22,393 nucleotides of DNA from a virus: IMG/VR virus record IMGVR_UViG_3300021138_000190, positions 1 through 22,393 of that record, one strand, 5' to 3'. Below, in pieces: positions 4,109 to 11,718 of the stretch (the first letter of the stretch is position 1; the number at the start of each line of letters is the position of its first letter). The translations under genes and the position numbers were made by a program. The notes under the pieces are model-generated. The model ran no database searches and was not told where the DNA came from. It saw only the letters and a program-made list of their open reading frames with translations.

Positions 4109-6130
4109 ATGTCCATGTTTTCATTCCAATTAGCCAACGAGTTTGTGGCTCCGTATCGGGCAAAGAAAGCGCCCTTTGGATACCGAGATGCCGCAGGAAA
4201 CTCAGTAGGAGAGATTACTTTTCTCAGAACCTACTCTCGGCTTAAAGATGATGGAACCAAAGAGACCTGGGTAGATGTATGCGAGCGAGTCATCAATGGC
4301 ATGTACTCACTGCAGAAGGATCATGCCAAGTTGAACCGTCTACCATGGTCAGATGCCAAAGCAGCCTCCTCCGCCAAGGAAGCCTTTGATCGACTATTCG
4401 ATCTAAAGTGGACACCACCAGGTCGTGGGCTGTGGGTTATGGGTACCAAGATAGTCAATGAACAACGCAACTCAGCAGCCCTACAAAACTGTGCCTTTGT
4501 ATCTACCGCCTCAATGACCAAGATCGATCCAGCCAAGCCATTTGCATTCCTTATGGAGGCATCTATGCTTGGGGTAGGTGTGGGCTTCGATGCTAAGGGA
4601 GCAGACAAAGAATTCACCATCTATGAACCACAAGGAGAAACTACTTATGTCATTCCAGACACCCGAGAAGGCTGGGTCGAGTCGTCAAGCGCCCTCCTCA
4701 ATTCCTTCCTTAAGCCAGATCAGAAGCGCCCTGTATTCGACTACTCGCAGATCCGACCAGCAGGAGAGCCAATCAAGACCTTCGGTGGAACTGCGGCTGG
4801 TCCCGATTCCCTCGTCGAATTCCACGATGAAGTAACTAAGATGTTTGCGGGCCGTGCAGGGGAGTTACTTACTCGCACGGATATCGCAGATATTGGTAAC
4901 CGAATCGGCGTATGTGTAGTTTCTGGAAACGTCCGTCGTTCAGCCGAGTTACTTATGGGACGTATCGATGATGAAAAGTTCCTTAACCTCAAGAACTACG
5001 ATCTGTACCCAGAACGTGCCGCATTTGGATGGATGTCGAATAACTCTGTAGAAGTATCTGTAGGTCAAGATCTATCGCCTATTATTGAAGGAATCTCCAG
5101 AAATGGTGAGCCAGGAGTTATTTGGATGGATCTTAGCCGTAAGTATGGGCGACTAGCAGACCCAGAAAATAACAAGGACTGGCGTATCGCTGGATACAAT
5201 CCTTGTGCCGAACAGTCTCTTGAATCCTATGAGTGCTGTACTTTGGTAGAGACCTACTTAAATCGTCACACCGATCTAGAAGACTTTAAGCGAACCCTTA
5301 AGTTTGCGTATCTCTACGCCAAGACCGTAACACTGATCCCTACTCACTGGGAAGATACGAACGCAATCATGCAACGTAATCGTCGTATTGGTACGTCGAT
5401 CTCAGGAGTGGCTAATTTTGCGGATAATCGTGGTTTGCCAGTACTTCGTACTTGGATGGATGAGGGTTACAAGACAATCCAAAATTACGATAAGACATAC
5501 TCTGAGTGGTTGGGTATCCGTGAGTCGATTAAGACCACGACTATCAAGCCATCGGGAACAGTCTCTATCCTTGCTGGTGAGTCCCCAGGAGTTCACTGGA
5601 CTGTAGGTGGCGAGTACTTCAACCGAGCCATTCGTTTCCGTAATAATGACCCAATGCTTCCCCTTTTTCAAATGGCTAACTACCGTGTGGAACCAGCAAA
5701 TGAAGACCCTAAAGGAACTTCTGTTGTGTTTTTTCCAATCAAGAGTGAAGCCAAGCGATCTGAAAAGGAAGTATCTATCTATGAGAAGATGGCTCTTGCT
5801 GCTACCGCTCAACGCTACTGGTCGGATAACTCTGTCTCTGTAACTGTCTCGTTTGATCCTGAGACTGAGGCTAAGGCTATCGGCACTGCACTCCACATGT
5901 ACGATGGACAACTTAAGACGGTGTCATTCCTACCAATGATGGATAACGGCGCTTATCCACAGATGCCTTACACACAGATTACTGAACAGCAGTACACAGA
6001 CGAGGGAATCATGAAACTGTTTCCTATCGATCTTGCTGGTGTGTATGCTGGTATGGCGATCGATGCCATTGGAGAAGCCTACTGCACGACGGACGCATGT
6101 GAAGTAAAACTTATTAAGGATAACCAATGA
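4109..6130 (+). CDS. nrdJ: Adenosylcobalamin-dependent (class II) ribonucleoside-triphosphate reductase
   Basis: A 673-residue monomeric-type class II reductase. It makes deoxyribonucleotides from ribonucleoside triphosphates with a B12-derived radical. Visible landmarks are C128 (LQNCAF) and C377 (ECCTLVETY) as the active-site disulfide pair, C366 in NPCAEQ as thiyl radical site with E368, the GVGVGFDA segment (155-162), KPSGTVSILAGESPG (480-494), and a C-terminal C659-x4-C664 that shuttles electrons. This order matches the Lactobacillus leichmannii enzyme, though the protein is somewhat shorter than its 739 residues. ATG 4109 follows the palindrome at 4096-4108; a second in-frame ATG is at 4115. 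The stop overlaps the FkbM gene (ATGA). All key residues are present, so it should be active if the host supplies cobalamin. Confidence 0.95.
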   Translation: MSMFSFQLANEFVAPYRAKKAPFGYRDAAGNSVGEITFLRTYSRLKDDGTKETWVDVCERVINGMYSLQKDHAKLNRLPWSDAKAASSAKEAFDRLFDLKWTPPGRGLWVMGTKIVNEQRNSAALQNCAFVSTASMTKIDPAKPFAFLMEASMLGVGVGFDAKGADKEFTIYEPQGETTYVIPDTREGWVESSSALLNSFLKPDQKRPVFDYSQIRPAGEPIKTFGGTAAGPDSLVEFHDEVTKMFAGRAGELLTRTDIADIGNRIGVCVVSGNVRRSAELLMGRIDDEKFLNLKNYDLYPERAAFGWMSNNSVEVSVGQDLSPIIEGISRNGEPGVIWMDLSRKYGRLADPENNKDWRIAGYNPCAEQSLESYECCTLVETYLNRHTDLEDFKRTLKFAYLYAKTVTLIPTHWEDTNAIMQRNRRIGTSISGVANFADNRGLPVLRTWMDEGYKTIQNYDKTYSEWLGIRESIKTTTIKPSGTVSILAGESPGVHWTVGGEYFNRAIRFRNNDPMLPLFQMANYRVEPANEDPKGTSVVFFPIKSEAKRSEKEVSIYEKMALAATAQRYWSDNSVSVTVSFDPETEAKAIGTALHMYDGQLKTVSFLPMMDNGAYPQMPYTQITEQQYTDEGIMKLFPIDLAGVYAGMAIDAIGEAYCTTDACEVKLIKDNQ

Positions 6131-6723
6131 AGTACTTTCCGTACAGCAATAGCGAGGCAGGGCAAGAGTCATTTGTTCTCAATATGTTAGACGAGAAGCG
6201 TGATGGCTACTATGTTGAGATTGGAGCCTTCGAGTCTCGTAAGACTAGCAATACTTACTTACTCGAAGGCGGGTATGACTGGAAGGGTATGGCTCTAGAG
6301 ATCGTTCTAGAGCACGCCCGAGAGTACAACTCCAACAGAAACAACCCATGTATCTGTGCCGATGCAACAGACTTTGACTATCTGTCTTACTTCGTAGACC
6401 ATAACTTTCCTAAACAAATCGATTATCTGCAAGTAGATATAGAGCCAGCAAGTCAGACACTAAAAGCATTAAAGCAAGTGCCATTAGAACACTACAGGTT
6501 CTCCGTCATTACATTCGAGCACGATCTTTACTTTAGTGAAGAGAATATCGCTGTAAAAGAAGAGCAAAAGAAGTTACTTACATCTTTTGGTTATGAACTT
6601 GCTGTGGAGAATGTGATGGTAGATGCTCCTGGATGGCCTTTGAGAGAATTTGAGGATTGGTGGGTTGATCCTAAGATTGTTTCTAAAGACAAGTACAAAG
6701 ACTTAAAATTAAGATACATGTAA
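6127..6723 (+). CDS. FkbM-family SAM-dependent methyltransferase
   Basis: A 198-residue protein. YYVEIGAFES (28-37) is the SAM-binding motif I of the FkbM family. It is followed by a region typical of the family: TSNTYLLE (40-47), GMALEIV with an acidic residue ending strand 2 (54-60), NPCICADATDFDYL (73-86), QIDYLQVDIEPAS (97-109) and FSVITFEHD (126-134). These proteins usually O-methylate sugars or other small metabolites. The ATG lies in an ATGA overlap with nrdJ, so the two are translated together. It is the last gene before a strong terminator. The phage could use it to modify a surface glycan or nucleotide-linked sugar, but the substrate is unknown. Confidence 0.85.
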   Translation: MKYFPYSNSEAGQESFVLNMLDEKRDGYYVEIGAFESRKTSNTYLLEGGYDWKGMALEIVLEHAREYNSNRNNPCICADATDFDYLSYFVDHNFPKQIDYLQVDIEPASQTLKALKQVPLEHYRFSVITFEHDLYFSEENIAVKEEQKKLLTSFGYELAVENVMVDAPGWPLREFEDWWVDPKIVSKDKYKDLKLRYM

Positions 6724-6746
6724 TGTATTTAAGCAACTGATTGTTA

Positions 6747-6776
6747 AGGGGTGTAGAAATCTACGCCCCTATTTTT
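6747..6776 (+). terminator. Intrinsic terminator of the plus-strand block
   Basis: An 11-base stem AGGGGTGTAGA / TCTACGCCCCT (one G-T wobble) with a tiny AA-centred loop is followed by ATTTTT at 6771-6776. It lies 24 bases after the FkbM stop and faces a convergent minus-strand gene ending at 6787. It may also slow transcription from the other side, but there the trailing T run is poor. Confidence 0.9.
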
Positions 6777-6786
6777 AATGCGTTAG

Positions 6787-7119
6787 TTAGAAGTCTCCCC
6801 AATCAATACTCTTTTTGTGTTTAACTAGTGCTTGTACTAGCAAGTTAACCGTTGAATCTCTAATTAAATCAGGCTCTGTAGTTACAGTGGATGAGGGTGT
6901 AAGTAACTCTGGAGTCTTTTCATAGGATTTAGCAAACTCCTTTACACATTGCAGACTGCAAAACCAATGCGTAGATCCCCTAACACCTTCCCCAGTTATG
7001 TTACCTCCTAGATACCACCAGTCCTTAGGTTGTTCATGTAATCTTCCAAGGTCCATGTTCGGACTCGACATAGACAACTTCTCACAGTTATCACACTGAT
7101 ACGCATACCCTGCTGGCAT
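6787..7119 (-). CDS. Small zinc-finger-like protein (CxxC...FCSLxC)
   Basis: A 110-residue protein, the last gene of the minus-strand block. The N-terminus has C9-DN-C12; a second pair is in HWFCSLQCVKEFA (C54, C58). The FCS-x-x-C-x-x-F pattern resembles short treble-clef or TRASH/MYM-like zinc fingers. The region between contains a Trp-rich patch (DWWYLGG). The C-terminus is helical (LLVQALVKHKKSIDW). ATG 7119 directly follows the TAA of the gene before it (TAAATG). It is AT-rich like its three neighbours. Its fold probably binds protein or nucleic acid; the function is unknown. Confidence 0.75.
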   Translation of the reverse strand: MPAGYAYQCDNCEKLSMSSPNMDLGRLHEQPKDWWYLGGNITGEGVRGSTHWFCSLQCVKEFAKSYEKTPELLTPSSTVTTEPDLIRDSTVNLLVQALVKHKKSIDWGDF

Positions 7120-7611
7120 TTAACTCTCCCTAGAACTTTCGTCTTTTGAACATACCTTTTCATGTATCTCTAACTGCTGTTGAGCAGCGTTAACGTTCAT
7201 ATCTAAAGCACCAGATTCTTTCCTTTGACATGCCAAGTCATACCCCAGTTCTTCTATCACTAGATCACACCATGGGCATTGAAAATAGAAGCGCGTAAAG
7301 TCGTCTATTGCTCTCCATTTACTTGGAGCCAAAGATTGCCAATAGAACTTACTTCTTTCTTCTAAACTACCGTAGTTTGTGGTTAGTCTTGATGAACCAC
7401 CAGTATTACTAGGTGTGTAAGATCCACCAACGCTATTGGATATGTAAGTGGAATTACCAAAAGGAGCAGTGTTGTTTGTAATGGCGGCATTCCCATACTC
7501 ATTGATTCGATATGAGACATTATTTAGATATTCTTTATTTCTTAGGTATTCCTTCATATTATTTCCTAAGAATTCTTCTATATTAGGATCTAGAGGGTCA
7601 GGCATCTCCAT
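7120..7611 (-). CDS. C2HC zinc-finger-like protein, paralogue C of a tandem family
   Basis: About 163 residues from ATG 7611, which has AGAAG just upstream and overlaps the previous gene by 14 bases; ATG 7635 would add eight residues. The N-terminal two thirds is Asn/Ser/Gly-rich and looks disordered (NSVGGSYTPSNTGGSS). The C-terminal third has FYWQSLAPSKWRAIDD, then FYFQCPWCDLVIEE, and ends in IHEKVC. The order AP-x-x-W, CxxC, Hx3C is shared with the two genes upstream, although overall identity is low. A single zinc site from the two Cys, His and last Cys is likely. Function unknown. Confidence 0.7.
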   Translation of the reverse strand: MEMPDPLDPNIEEFLGNNMKEYLRNKEYLNNVSYRINEYGNAAITNNTAPFGNSTYISNSVGGSYTPSNTGGSSRLTTNYGSLEERSKFYWQSLAPSKWRAIDDFTRFYFQCPWCDLVIEELGYDLACQRKESGALDMNVNAAQQQLEIHEKVCSKDESSRES

Positions 7612-7861
7612 GTAACTTCTCGCATTCCTTTTCATGGGAAGAAATTAGATTCCTTTGATACTTACTAATCTTATAAGAATCTGCGTTTACGCTTTGTACA
7701 TTTATAATCCCATCACAATACTCACATTGTAAAATGTATAACTCCCCCTTAGATCTACTTGTTAGACCCACTTTCCAACCCATGGGTGCCCAGTACTTCC
7801 AGTAAACAATGTCTTCACCATTTGAATAGTAGGAAGGTGTTAAAACATCATCACTATTCAT
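7598..7861 (-). CDS. C2HC zinc-finger-like protein, paralogue B of a tandem family
   Basis: An 87-residue protein, the shortest and simplest member: VYWKYWAPMGWKVGL, then LYILQCEYCDGIINVQ, then ISSHEKECEKL. It is essentially only the shared module. ATG 7861 overlaps the end of the preceding gene by eight bases (stop TAG at 7854-7856). The next gene starts inside its last codons. No membrane or signal segment is present. The compact Trp-Cys-His arrangement suggests a small treble-clef-like or DNA-recognition zinc module, but I cannot name a family. Confidence 0.75.
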   Translation of the reverse strand: MNSDDVLTPSYYSNGEDIVYWKYWAPMGWKVGLTSRSKGELYILQCEYCDGIINVQSVNADSYKISKYQRNLISSHEKECEKLHGDA

Positions 7862-8282
7862 TTATGACTCCACTACACACTAAGTTGTGCTTACCTATCC
7901 ATTTGGATGGAAATGCCATTTCTCGCAAGAGAATTACCTTTGGTGTTCCAATCATGTGACGTTCAATGGTCATAATCCTGTCATCACAAATTTTGCATAC
8001 CAAAGTAACAAACTCACCATCTTCATTTTTCCATCCCAACGGGGCTAGAACATTAAAGAAAAACTTTTCGTACTCATCTACTGTGTAAGGTGACTTAGGA
8101 AACTTTGGATAGGAATTAGTCTTTGTAGCAGTGGGAAAAGTTATGCCTAAATCAAGTTCCATTTGCTCCCATGTAGGGTTGTCTTTAAGGGACTCACTAC
8201 TCCACGATTTCTTACGCTGTGGGTACTCGCTCTTGTGCTTGGCGATCATGTAGTCCTTGTATTTATCTCTAGGCTTATCCAT
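7854..8282 (-). CDS. C2HC zinc-finger-like protein, paralogue A of a tandem family
   Basis: A 142-residue protein. A basic N-terminal tail (about 1-30, many K/R) is followed by a helical stretch and the shared module: FFFNVLAPLGWKNEDG, VTLVCKICDDRIMT, GKHNLVC. ATG 8282 sits three bases after AGGGGG and a short distance after the GAAA-loop hairpin at 8301-8318. It is the first gene of the four-gene AT-rich cassette. The basic tail would suit nucleic-acid binding. Function unknown. Confidence 0.75.
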   Translation of the reverse strand: MDKPRDKYKDYMIAKHKSEYPQRKKSWSSESLKDNPTWEQMELDLGITFPTATKTNSYPKFPKSPYTVDEYEKFFFNVLAPLGWKNEDGEFVTLVCKICDDRIMTIERHMIGTPKVILLREMAFPSKWIGKHNLVCSGVINE

Positions 8283-8300: not shown

Positions 8301-8318
8301 CCACCCCTTTCGGGGTGG
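8301..8318 (-). terminator. GAAA-loop hairpin between the transglycosylase and zinc-finger genes
   Basis: On the minus strand CCACCCC-GAAA-GGGGTGG is a perfect seven-pair GC-rich hairpin with a stable tetraloop. It lies 12 bases after the transglycosylase stop (8331) and 18 bases before ATG 8282. No T run follows on the minus strand. It may lower downstream transcription or protect the mRNA end. On the plus strand it is followed by CTTTCCC, also a poor U tract. Confidence 0.5.
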
Positions 8319-8330
8319 CTTTCCCTGCTC

Positions 8331-8879
8331 CTATTGCTTCTGCTTCTTGTTTATCTTGTGGATTGGTGTCTTGTACGGGTACTTCTCCATGTAGTACTTT
8401 ACTACAGGTTGGTTTACACCCTTCCAGTCTGACCAGTCTTTGCCAGCATCACTCATTAGATAAGCGATCTTGGCATTAGTCACAGGATTTAGCAGTTCTG
8501 CATTACTCGCTAAACCGTAGTACCCCCTTCGAGCATTTCCCATGCTTCCCAGCATGTTGATCTGGAAGAGACCGTAAGACTTGTCTCCTGTATGCCAGTT
8601 CCCGTTGTAATCGAGGGGATGTCCTTGTGATTCTTTCTTTGCTATTGCCCATGCTTCTTTGAGGTGGATTCCTTTGAACCCAGTCGCTTTAAGAAGTTGT
8701 ACGAGGTCTCTATCCGTGAGGATTTTGGCTCCGAAGTACTTCCCTAAGGTAATTGCATGTGCTGGGGCTGGGGCTAGTGCTGGGGTTGCTATCCCTAGTC
8801 CTATCGCTATTGCGAGGGCTGGACTAGTGAGTAGGCTTACCAGTACTACCTTCCCACGGTTGGTTAGTTTTATAGTCAT
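8331..8879 (-). CDS. Secreted lysozyme/transglycosylase-like protein (SLT fold)
   Basis: A 182-residue protein from ATG 8879. It has a long signal peptide: basic N-region (MTIKLTNRGK), hydrophobic core to about residue 35 and an Ala-rich stretch ending in AHA, a good signal peptidase I site. The mature part has AWAIAKKESQGHP with the likely catalytic Glu, then DKSYGLFQINMLGS, the family's SxGLxQI motif, and NPVTNAKIAYLM, all in the order seen in SLT/goose-lysozyme-like enzymes that cut peptidoglycan. The ATG follows the integrase TGA by one base and uses GGAG inside the integrase end, so it is coupled to integrase. A lysis enzyme, a cell-wall remodelling factor or a lysogeny-expressed gene are all possible. 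Confidence 0.8.
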   Translation of the reverse strand: MTIKLTNRGKVVLVSLLTSPALAIAIGLGIATPALAPAPAHAITLGKYFGAKILTDRDLVQLLKATGFKGIHLKEAWAIAKKESQGHPLDYNGNWHTGDKSYGLFQINMLGSMGNARRGYYGLASNAELLNPVTNAKIAYLMSDAGKDWSDWKGVNQPVVKYYMEKYPYKTPIHKINKKQKQ

Positions 8880-8880
8880 T

Positions 8881-10149
8881 TCACTCCATAAAGTCATTGG
8901 TAAGTTCCCCTGCCGTTGACTGTTGGTGACGGATACGGTGGAGATACCGCTCTGTCGTCTTAATCGACTGGTGACCTAGACGTTCCTTGACCTCGTGCAA
9001 GTCCACCCCGTTCTTTAACAACTGGGTGGCGTTAGCGTGCCGTAGGTCGTGGGTTCTAGGAGTCCATCCGATTCCTGATTTGTCTATTGCTTTGTTCCAT
9101 TCGGTTCTCCATACCTCACGAGGCAAGTGACTTGTTTCGTCTATCATGGGCTTAGGCTTTGACTTGGACTGACGGTACTTGCGTACCGCTTCGCCACAGG
9201 TCTGGCATCTGCAGGCTCCATGCGTGTATGCATAGAGAGTTCCATGGTCGAACAGTTTTCCTCCCTTAGAGAATGACCCTAGGGGACTTGCTGTACCTCG
9301 TGAAGATTCCAGTTTACCTGCTGTTAACACAATGGTTCTAGGGAAGAGCAGGTCTTCTTTCCTTAGAGAGTTAGACGTGACATGGGCTTGGATGTCATGT
9401 ATTAGGGCTTTAGATAGGGTTATAGAGCGTTTTCTGCCTGATTTAGTACCCTCTATTACTCTGAACCTCTCGCCGTTATTATGCGAGGCTCCCAGATCGC
9501 TAACTCTACGCTGGACGTATACCTCGCCAGTAATGAAGTTAAAGTCCTTGACCCTGATCTCGGTTGCTTCACCGAAGCGACATCCACTAGATACCAGAAA
9601 CTTGGCAAGTAACTTTGACGCTGGGTTTGCTAAATTTGAAAGTATCTTCTTAAAATCCTCAGGCTCTAGAATGTTCTGGATGTTTGGTTGATTCTGGGGG
9701 ATAGCAATGCCATGAGCAGGATTCTCGCCCTGAATTAGTTCTTCTTCCAGAACCGATCGATACATCGACCCGATACATGCCTTGATCTGAGAACGGCTAG
9801 AGGCTGGCATCCCCTTAGATTTAAGCAGAGATAGGAGCGTTACTACATGACGACGATGTATAGCCTCCAAGGGATAACCACCGATGTTAAGGCGTACGTG
9901 CTTGTTAAATAGCAGTGTGTAGTTCTTCTTAGTGATGGGCATAAGATCTGCTCCAACTATCCACTTATCAAAATAAGAACCTAAGGTAAAAGACTTCCCC
10001 TTAACCATGGGAGCACTGTCTAGTAGTTCAGCCAGTGTGCCAGCACGTTCAGCCTCTAAACGGTTGCTGTATGTTCCAGCAGAGCAACGCTTACCAGCAT
10101 GTCGGTAATAGGCGGTGAACCTGTCACCACGAGTTACTACATAAGCCAT
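8881..10149 (-). CDS. int: Tyrosine-type phage integrase with zinc-finger-like insertion
   Basis: A 422-residue site-specific recombinase from ATG 10149, which has AGGGAGGTGAT eight bases upstream; start codons at 10158 and 10155 would overlap that site. An N-terminal arm-binding domain and core-binding SAM-like domain (about 55-145) precede the catalytic domain: R191 (SSGCRFGE), a Lys in TKSGRKRSIT (235-244), H367-x-x-R370 (THDLRH), H393 (LGHQ) and nucleophile Y402 (TTERYLH). Between the Lys hairpin and HxxR lies an extra segment with H302-G-T...C313-x-C315-x-x-C318 followed by EAVRKYRQ, resembling a small zinc module found also in the HNH protein here. Integration by this enzyme implies a temperate phage. 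Confidence 0.95.
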   Translation of the reverse strand: MAYVVTRGDRFTAYYRHAGKRCSAGTYSNRLEAERAGTLAELLDSAPMVKGKSFTLGSYFDKWIVGADLMPITKKNYTLLFNKHVRLNIGGYPLEAIHRRHVVTLLSLLKSKGMPASSRSQIKACIGSMYRSVLEEELIQGENPAHGIAIPQNQPNIQNILEPEDFKKILSNLANPASKLLAKFLVSSGCRFGEATEIRVKDFNFITGEVYVQRRVSDLGASHNNGERFRVIEGTKSGRKRSITLSKALIHDIQAHVTSNSLRKEDLLFPRTIVLTAGKLESSRGTASPLGSFSKGGKLFDHGTLYAYTHGACRCQTCGEAVRKYRQSKSKPKPMIDETSHLPREVWRTEWNKAIDKSGIGWTPRTHDLRHANATQLLKNGVDLHEVKERLGHQSIKTTERYLHRIRHQQSTAGELTNDFME

Positions 10150-10184
10150 AAACATCACCTCCCTTTACATGTTAATAGAATCAA

Positions 10185-11429: not shown

Positions 11430-11594
11430 TTAATACCCTCCTAAGCATCTACTGCTTCTAGTGTGTCTAAATTGTGCATCTCGTATCTCAGTCAGAGTGG
11501 GGGCATACAAGTCTGTGCTACAGGCAGAGCATAGGAATGTGTATTCCTCACCCTTTGCATCCCATTCAAATCCTTTGTAAATACTTCTACGCAT
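11430..11594 (-). CDS. Small zinc-finger-like protein related in pattern to the 7.1-8.3 kb family
   Basis: A 54-residue protein from ATG 11594, which has AGGAG four bases upstream; a longer frame to 11663 lacks this. The pattern is FEWDAKGEEYTFLCSACSTDLYAP, then H-x6-C at the end (RHTRSSRC). This recalls the W / YxFxCxxC / H...C order of the cassette at 7120-8282, in shorter form. One zinc could be bound by two Cys, His and Cys. Confidence 0.65.
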   Translation of the reverse strand: MRRSIYKGFEWDAKGEEYTFLCSACSTDLYAPTLTEIRDAQFRHTRSSRCLGGY

Positions 11595-11718
11595 ATGTCT
11601 CCTACTCTTGTTAATTGGAAATCGGGTAGGGGCAGGTACGGCTACGGTAAGGCTACCGATCATGACCGTCCTTCATGGCAAATGTGTATAAATCCATGTT
11701 GACCCCAGCCCGATAAAT

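Follow-up and report, generated by a model that had tools for sequence, protein, structure and literature searches.

A new mosaic family of small C2HC proteins at a fixed position in uncultured phages, present as three tandem copies in one of them

Three tandem C2HC genes behind a phage lysin

We analysed 22,393 nucleotides of a virus record (IMG/VR IMGVR_UViG_3300021138_000190), and refer to this whole 22.4 kb stretch as the window. Three adjacent minus-strand genes, copies A, B and C, lie in it between a lysozyme-like gene (the lysin) and a B12-dependent ribonucleotide reductase (RNR); the same region also holds an FkbM-like gene, a weak Pfam match, and a further small gene, D. The features are as follows.

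4109-6130, plus strand: B12-dependent RNR, the constant right-hand, convergent neighbour in relatives
6747-6770, no strand assigned: intrinsic-terminator-like hairpin that closes the cluster, with its T-run on the plus strand, 3' of the convergent FkbM-like gene
6787-7119, minus strand: gene D, a zinc protein of 110 aa with CxxC...FCxxxC and weak zf-FCS similarity
7120-7611, minus strand: copy C, about 163 aa, an Asn/Ser/Thr-rich N-terminus and a C2HC domain
7598-7861, minus strand: copy B, 87 aa, a C2HC domain alone
7854-8282, minus strand: copy A, 142 aa, a disordered N-terminus with WEQMELDL, then a C2HC domain (C96, C99, H132, C136)
8148-8171, minus strand: codons for copy A residues 38-45, WEQMELDL; in relatives W[VHTQE]Q[DPM]EL[PDT][FYL]
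8301-8318, minus strand: GNRA-tetraloop hairpin CCACCCC-GAAA-GGGGTGG, between the lysin and copy A
8331-8897, minus strand: lysin (SLT_3/SLT), the constant left-hand neighbour of the C2HC gene
8881-10158, minus strand: tyrosine integrase

The three genes overlap or abut and each has a Shine-Dalgarno context, by which copy C, whose open reading frame extends to 7635, probably starts at 7611 instead. The start codon of gene D directly follows the stop codon of copy C. This three-copy layout is not an assembly error, since a separate contig (L002) is identical to the window over 9304 bases. The original prediction had placed the cluster behind the integrase; it is indeed downstream of that gene, but the lysin intervenes, so that the cluster stands directly behind the lysin.

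Alignment of copies A, B and C revealed three shared elements, AP-x2-W[KR], Phi-x-C-x2-C-D and H-x3-C, and pairwise shuffle tests gave z-scores of 6.3 (A-B), 5.4 (B-C) and 4.2 (A-C). A stronger test of homology than the shuffles was a profile built from the homologues of other phages only and run against 150 open reading frames of the window, among which it matched exactly A (E 1.2e-10), B (4.4e-10) and C (2.4e-7). By this profile comparison the three are homologous, and the tandem duplication with strong divergence that had been read from their shared motifs is borne out. A tree gave no reliable order for the duplications of A, B and C, its branches being long. Gene D was rejected as a family member with the same profile (E 2.4) and is unrelated, as had been foreseen. 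Also rejected was the gene at 11430 (E 0.02), for which a resemblance to the family had been claimed; 11430-11663 encodes the orthologue of another small protein, conserved in its own right (CxxC...Hx5C, ending LGGY; approximately 50-57% identity), whose own family is found also at L005:6404-6559 and L009:8123-8278.

The zinc ligands C, C, H and C, together with the tryptophan of GW[KR], are invariant in an alignment of 21 domain sequences, and the C2HC protein is predicted to bind zinc. The AlphaFold models of A and B follow the same order, alpha-beta-beta-[CxxC]-beta-alpha-[HxxxC]. Confidence in these models is moderate (pLDDT 86-89 in the core of copy A), and a Foldseek search with them against solved structures found no match at E<=0.001. 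Two known groups invite comparison. The zf-C3HC/NuBaID BIR-like domain (PF07967) has GW, CxxC and HxxxC in the same order as the C2HC family; however, only one of 28 members matches it, the score of copy B (E 0.005, 17.2 bits) is below the Pfam gathering threshold of 22.2, and the moderate-confidence models gave no fold match. Classical C2H2/CCHC and BED-type fingers likewise separate CxxC and Hx3-4C by a strand and a helix, but in the C2HC family the interval is approximately 20-35 residues, and neither profile nor structure matched.

A core gene at one fixed position

No close relative of the window was found among sequenced phages. Scans of viral contigs, whether with one protein or with three sequences, recovered nothing beyond the same phage, tblastn against the phage collection gave no convincing homologue (best E near 1), and GTDB genome contigs yielded neither a homologue with the family alignment nor a prophage with the integrase alignment. 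Relatives were reached through the integrase: at 62-65% integrase identity they carry one copy A homologue directly after the lysin gene, or two C2HC genes in the case of L004, whereas the more distant integrase relatives L015 and L016 are without one. C2HC profile searches eventually reached approximately 90 open reading frames. Pfam, PHROGs, NCBIfam, PADLOC and the PDB gave no match to the family, and a sequence profile search of the PDB was negative as well; the family is a new one, made up of small proteins in which the C2HC signature is invariant.

In relatives the gene order is fixed as Xis-Int-lysin-C2HC, followed by convergent RNR-DpdA, and copy A is the positional orthologue of their single gene. 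Among 76 contigs having both flanks, some of them near-duplicates so that the numbers are not independent, 72 have one C2HC gene, two (L004 and L087) have two, and two have three, the latter both being the phage of the window. The second copies in L004 and L087 have an N-terminus similar to that of copy C, rich in Asn, Ser and Thr. The C2HC gene is thus a core gene, fixed in position, in an uncultured phage clade, with local growth in copy number. The host group of this clade is probably actinobacterial, since two neighbouring genes have their nearest annotated relatives in Streptomyces phages; no C2HC domain match came from BRock and GiJojo, two Streptomyces phages that share DpdA and a nucleotidyltransferase-like gene.

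Two elaborations of the protein were seen. Some members (L045, L046, L078, L083 and L084) end in an extra CYKCxGxGILQSGEECDC knuckle like the DnaJ-type zinc motif, and the second copy of L087 (4219-4893) joins a long Thr/Asn-rich N-terminus to a C-terminal GGARVFDGTNWVEISG stretch resembling phage structural proteins.

This distribution bears on the proposal, made in the original prediction, that the cluster is a free-standing cassette for defence or superinfection immunity, formed by tandem duplication behind the integrase. Three diverged copies in tandem, in an operon layout of overlapping or abutting genes, are what such a cassette might look like, but the gene occupies one fixed core position and is single in nearly all relatives, PADLOC returned nothing, and no toxin, nuclease or membrane feature was seen. 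We therefore regard a cassette as very improbable; the cluster matches no known system and is not a demonstrated defence cassette. The order next to integrases was recovered in other phage genomes as the fixed Xis-Int-lysin-C2HC series, but not as a tandem of three, and homologues, while mostly single, are not scattered over unrelated places: they keep the one position in nearly every relative.

Replacement of the zinc half

The evolution of the C2HC gene is of more interest than its tandem arrangement. Of the neighbourhood genes compared, it changes fastest; between L029 and L042, for example, identity is 93% in the RNR, 91% in the integrase and 87% in the lysin, but 48% in the C2HC gene. This change is not spread evenly along the gene. 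Between L009 and L011, identity is 97-100% over most of the lysin and over the C2HC gene's first 240 bases, and 58-77% from there on; dS is 0.077 before GW[KR] and saturated after it, and third-position identity is 0.96 before vs 0.47 after. Among 196 close pairs, which are not phylogenetically independent, identity falls by more than 15 points after GW[KR] in 84 and rises in none, and the change points cluster, in separate clades, at the GW[KR] codon or up to 26 codons after it. Reciprocal mosaics were found as well, L033/L034 (tail 46%, centre 95%, zinc half 100%) and L038/L039 (tail 69%, centre 91%, zinc half 97%). Hence the middle part of the gene is kept, with the docking-like motif and the first helix as far as GW[KR]; the zinc half is exchanged between relatives, and in one clade the N-terminal tail is exchanged too.

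Positive selection as the sole cause of the variable half was rejected; synonymous sites also drop in identity after GW[KR], which argues for recombination rather than selection alone. Where halves have not been exchanged dN/dS is mostly 0.1-0.4 in both of them, indicating that the alleles are functional. The simplest reading is recurrent replacement of the zinc half by divergent functional alleles. The replaced tract runs on into the stretch before the RNR, where accessory genes differ between contigs: this hotspot, seen in L023, L043 and L045 and equivalent to 6127-7119 in the window (the FkbM-like methyltransferase and gene D), holds small WHLTSK-type zinc proteins (phrog_3424) as well as glutaredoxin-like, HNH and tryptophan-halogenase-like genes, named here from their translations. 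Mosaic phage genes that exchange parts at their domain borders show a similar abrupt internal break in identity and exchange with neighbouring cargo; what sets the C2HC gene apart is that separate clades have the break at the GW[KR] codon or up to approximately 26 codons after it, around a conserved docking-like motif.

At the other end of the gene stands a further conserved feature. The window has only two strong GC-rich hairpins, of which the GNRA hairpin is one; it lacks a clear T-run and is kept at the lysin-C2HC junction in the relatives examined, with compensatory stem changes at pairs 4, 6 and 8. In clades 2 and 3 a second inverted repeat, roughly AACTAACT..CCTGGCAGCCAGG..AGTTAGTTAGTTAG, is placed after this first hairpin and ahead of the C2HC gene (L031, L036, L071, L091, L111 and others); it could be an attachment site or a regulatory element.

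Because the first hairpin is conserved, covaries and lies directly upstream of the C2HC gene, we have kept alive the possibility that the protein is a nucleic-acid-binding regulator of the integrase/lysin operon, in which the C2HC domain would bind DNA or the hairpin and control early or lysogeny transcripts, while the conserved motif would recruit RNA polymerase or another transcription factor. The succession of CxxC and HxxxC on a beta-beta-alpha-like scaffold resembles nucleic-acid-binding fingers, and Xis, HTH-like and integrase genes precede the C2HC gene. However, the hairpin is nearly unchanged, and for a protein reading such a fixed site the exchange of its whole zinc half would be odd; moreover, no known DNA-binding finger and no fold was matched. 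On balance we hold such a regulator to be unlikely.

The docking-like motif and a proposed role

What stays constant while the zinc half is replaced includes a short motif, W-x-Q-x-E-L-P-[FYL], which the single-copy relatives have in common with copy A (WEQMELDL) and which is located in the disordered stretch upstream of the zinc domain. It reads W[VHE]Q[DPM]EL[PDT][FYL] in the first homologue set, and W[TQ]QPELPF, WEQM[TP]IPF, YQEEL[NS]LIPY or YKEP[ND]LPY in members fetched by a pattern for the domain only. Its presence in members retrieved by synteny or by this domain-only pattern means that it is not only a product of ascertainment. Copy A alone of the three copies keeps it. On a contig without other window genes (L048:2758-2985), a protein of 75 aa has the same motif, as WHQPELPF, and the same FYSNVSKK linker, but no zinc domain.

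The motif recalls those by which proteins bind the bacterial sliding clamp, DnaN. A review (PMC11139829) gives two canonical forms of the clamp-binding motif, Q-phi-x-[LM][FL] and Q-phi-x-[LM]-x-[FL], and counts peptides with QLELDF or QVELEF among the binders. QMELDL of copy A fits the second form, and its location in a disordered N-terminus is as in Hda, one of the known beta-clamp binders along with Pol III alpha and Pol IV. The likeness has its limits: most relatives (QDELPF/QPELPF) agree with this form at positions 1, 4 and 6, whereas their position 2 is D or P instead of an aliphatic residue; in part of clade 3 the Q is replaced by E; and no known clamp binder has the zinc domain of this family. 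In five long relatives the pattern occurs once per genome, no other phage protein carries it, and no DnaN domain is encoded, so the clamp would be the host's.

We believe that the C2HC protein is most likely a docking adaptor with an exchangeable zinc module, encoded at the edge of a recombination hotspot. In the model that we propose, the protein would attach through its conserved motif to a conserved hub of the host, for which the beta sliding clamp DnaN is the likeliest candidate; its exchangeable zinc domain would contact a variable partner, either a host or anti-phage protein or a nucleic acid, during takeover or lysogeny; extra copies would widen the range of targets. A role in host interaction, which the original prediction had also suggested, is plausible because the gene changes fastest of those compared and its zinc half has been repeatedly replaced. 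Nothing points to a known defence system. As a whole, a new mosaic family of zinc-binding adaptors that dock on a host hub, most likely DnaN, is the reading we adopt, with somewhat less than even confidence. Against it stand the departures from the canonical motif, the confinement of the motif to one protein per genome, the missing PDB fold match for models of moderate confidence, and copies B and C, where a clamp role would have been lost or be different. The more specific version, a phage replisome adaptor in which a constant clamp-docking motif and a recombination-swapped zinc half make up a retargetable host-takeover or anti-defence protein, with three versions stacked in the window, is doubtful; both the clamp binding and the takeover or anti-defence role are putative.

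Much of the same evidence would serve an inhibitor that acts in anti-defence or host takeover without the sliding clamp, its zinc half binding diverse proteins of hosts or rival phages and so driving allele exchange and duplication. The rate of change, the exchangeable half, the growth in copy number and the adjoining accessory hotspot all suit it, but it leaves the conserved W-x-Q-x-E-L motif unexplained and sits poorly with dN/dS below 0.5 in nearly all pairs; we consider it improbable.

The adaptor that we propose rests on a pattern that is itself sharp and testable, in which a docking-like motif stays constant and the zinc domain attached to it is swapped at a recurrent intragenic point. 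The core gene family that this work defines was without annotation and belongs to uncultured phages that are probably actinobacterial. Should its motif bind the clamp, the family would represent a naturally occurring series of phage proteins directed at the replication machinery, whose effector ends are interchangeable.
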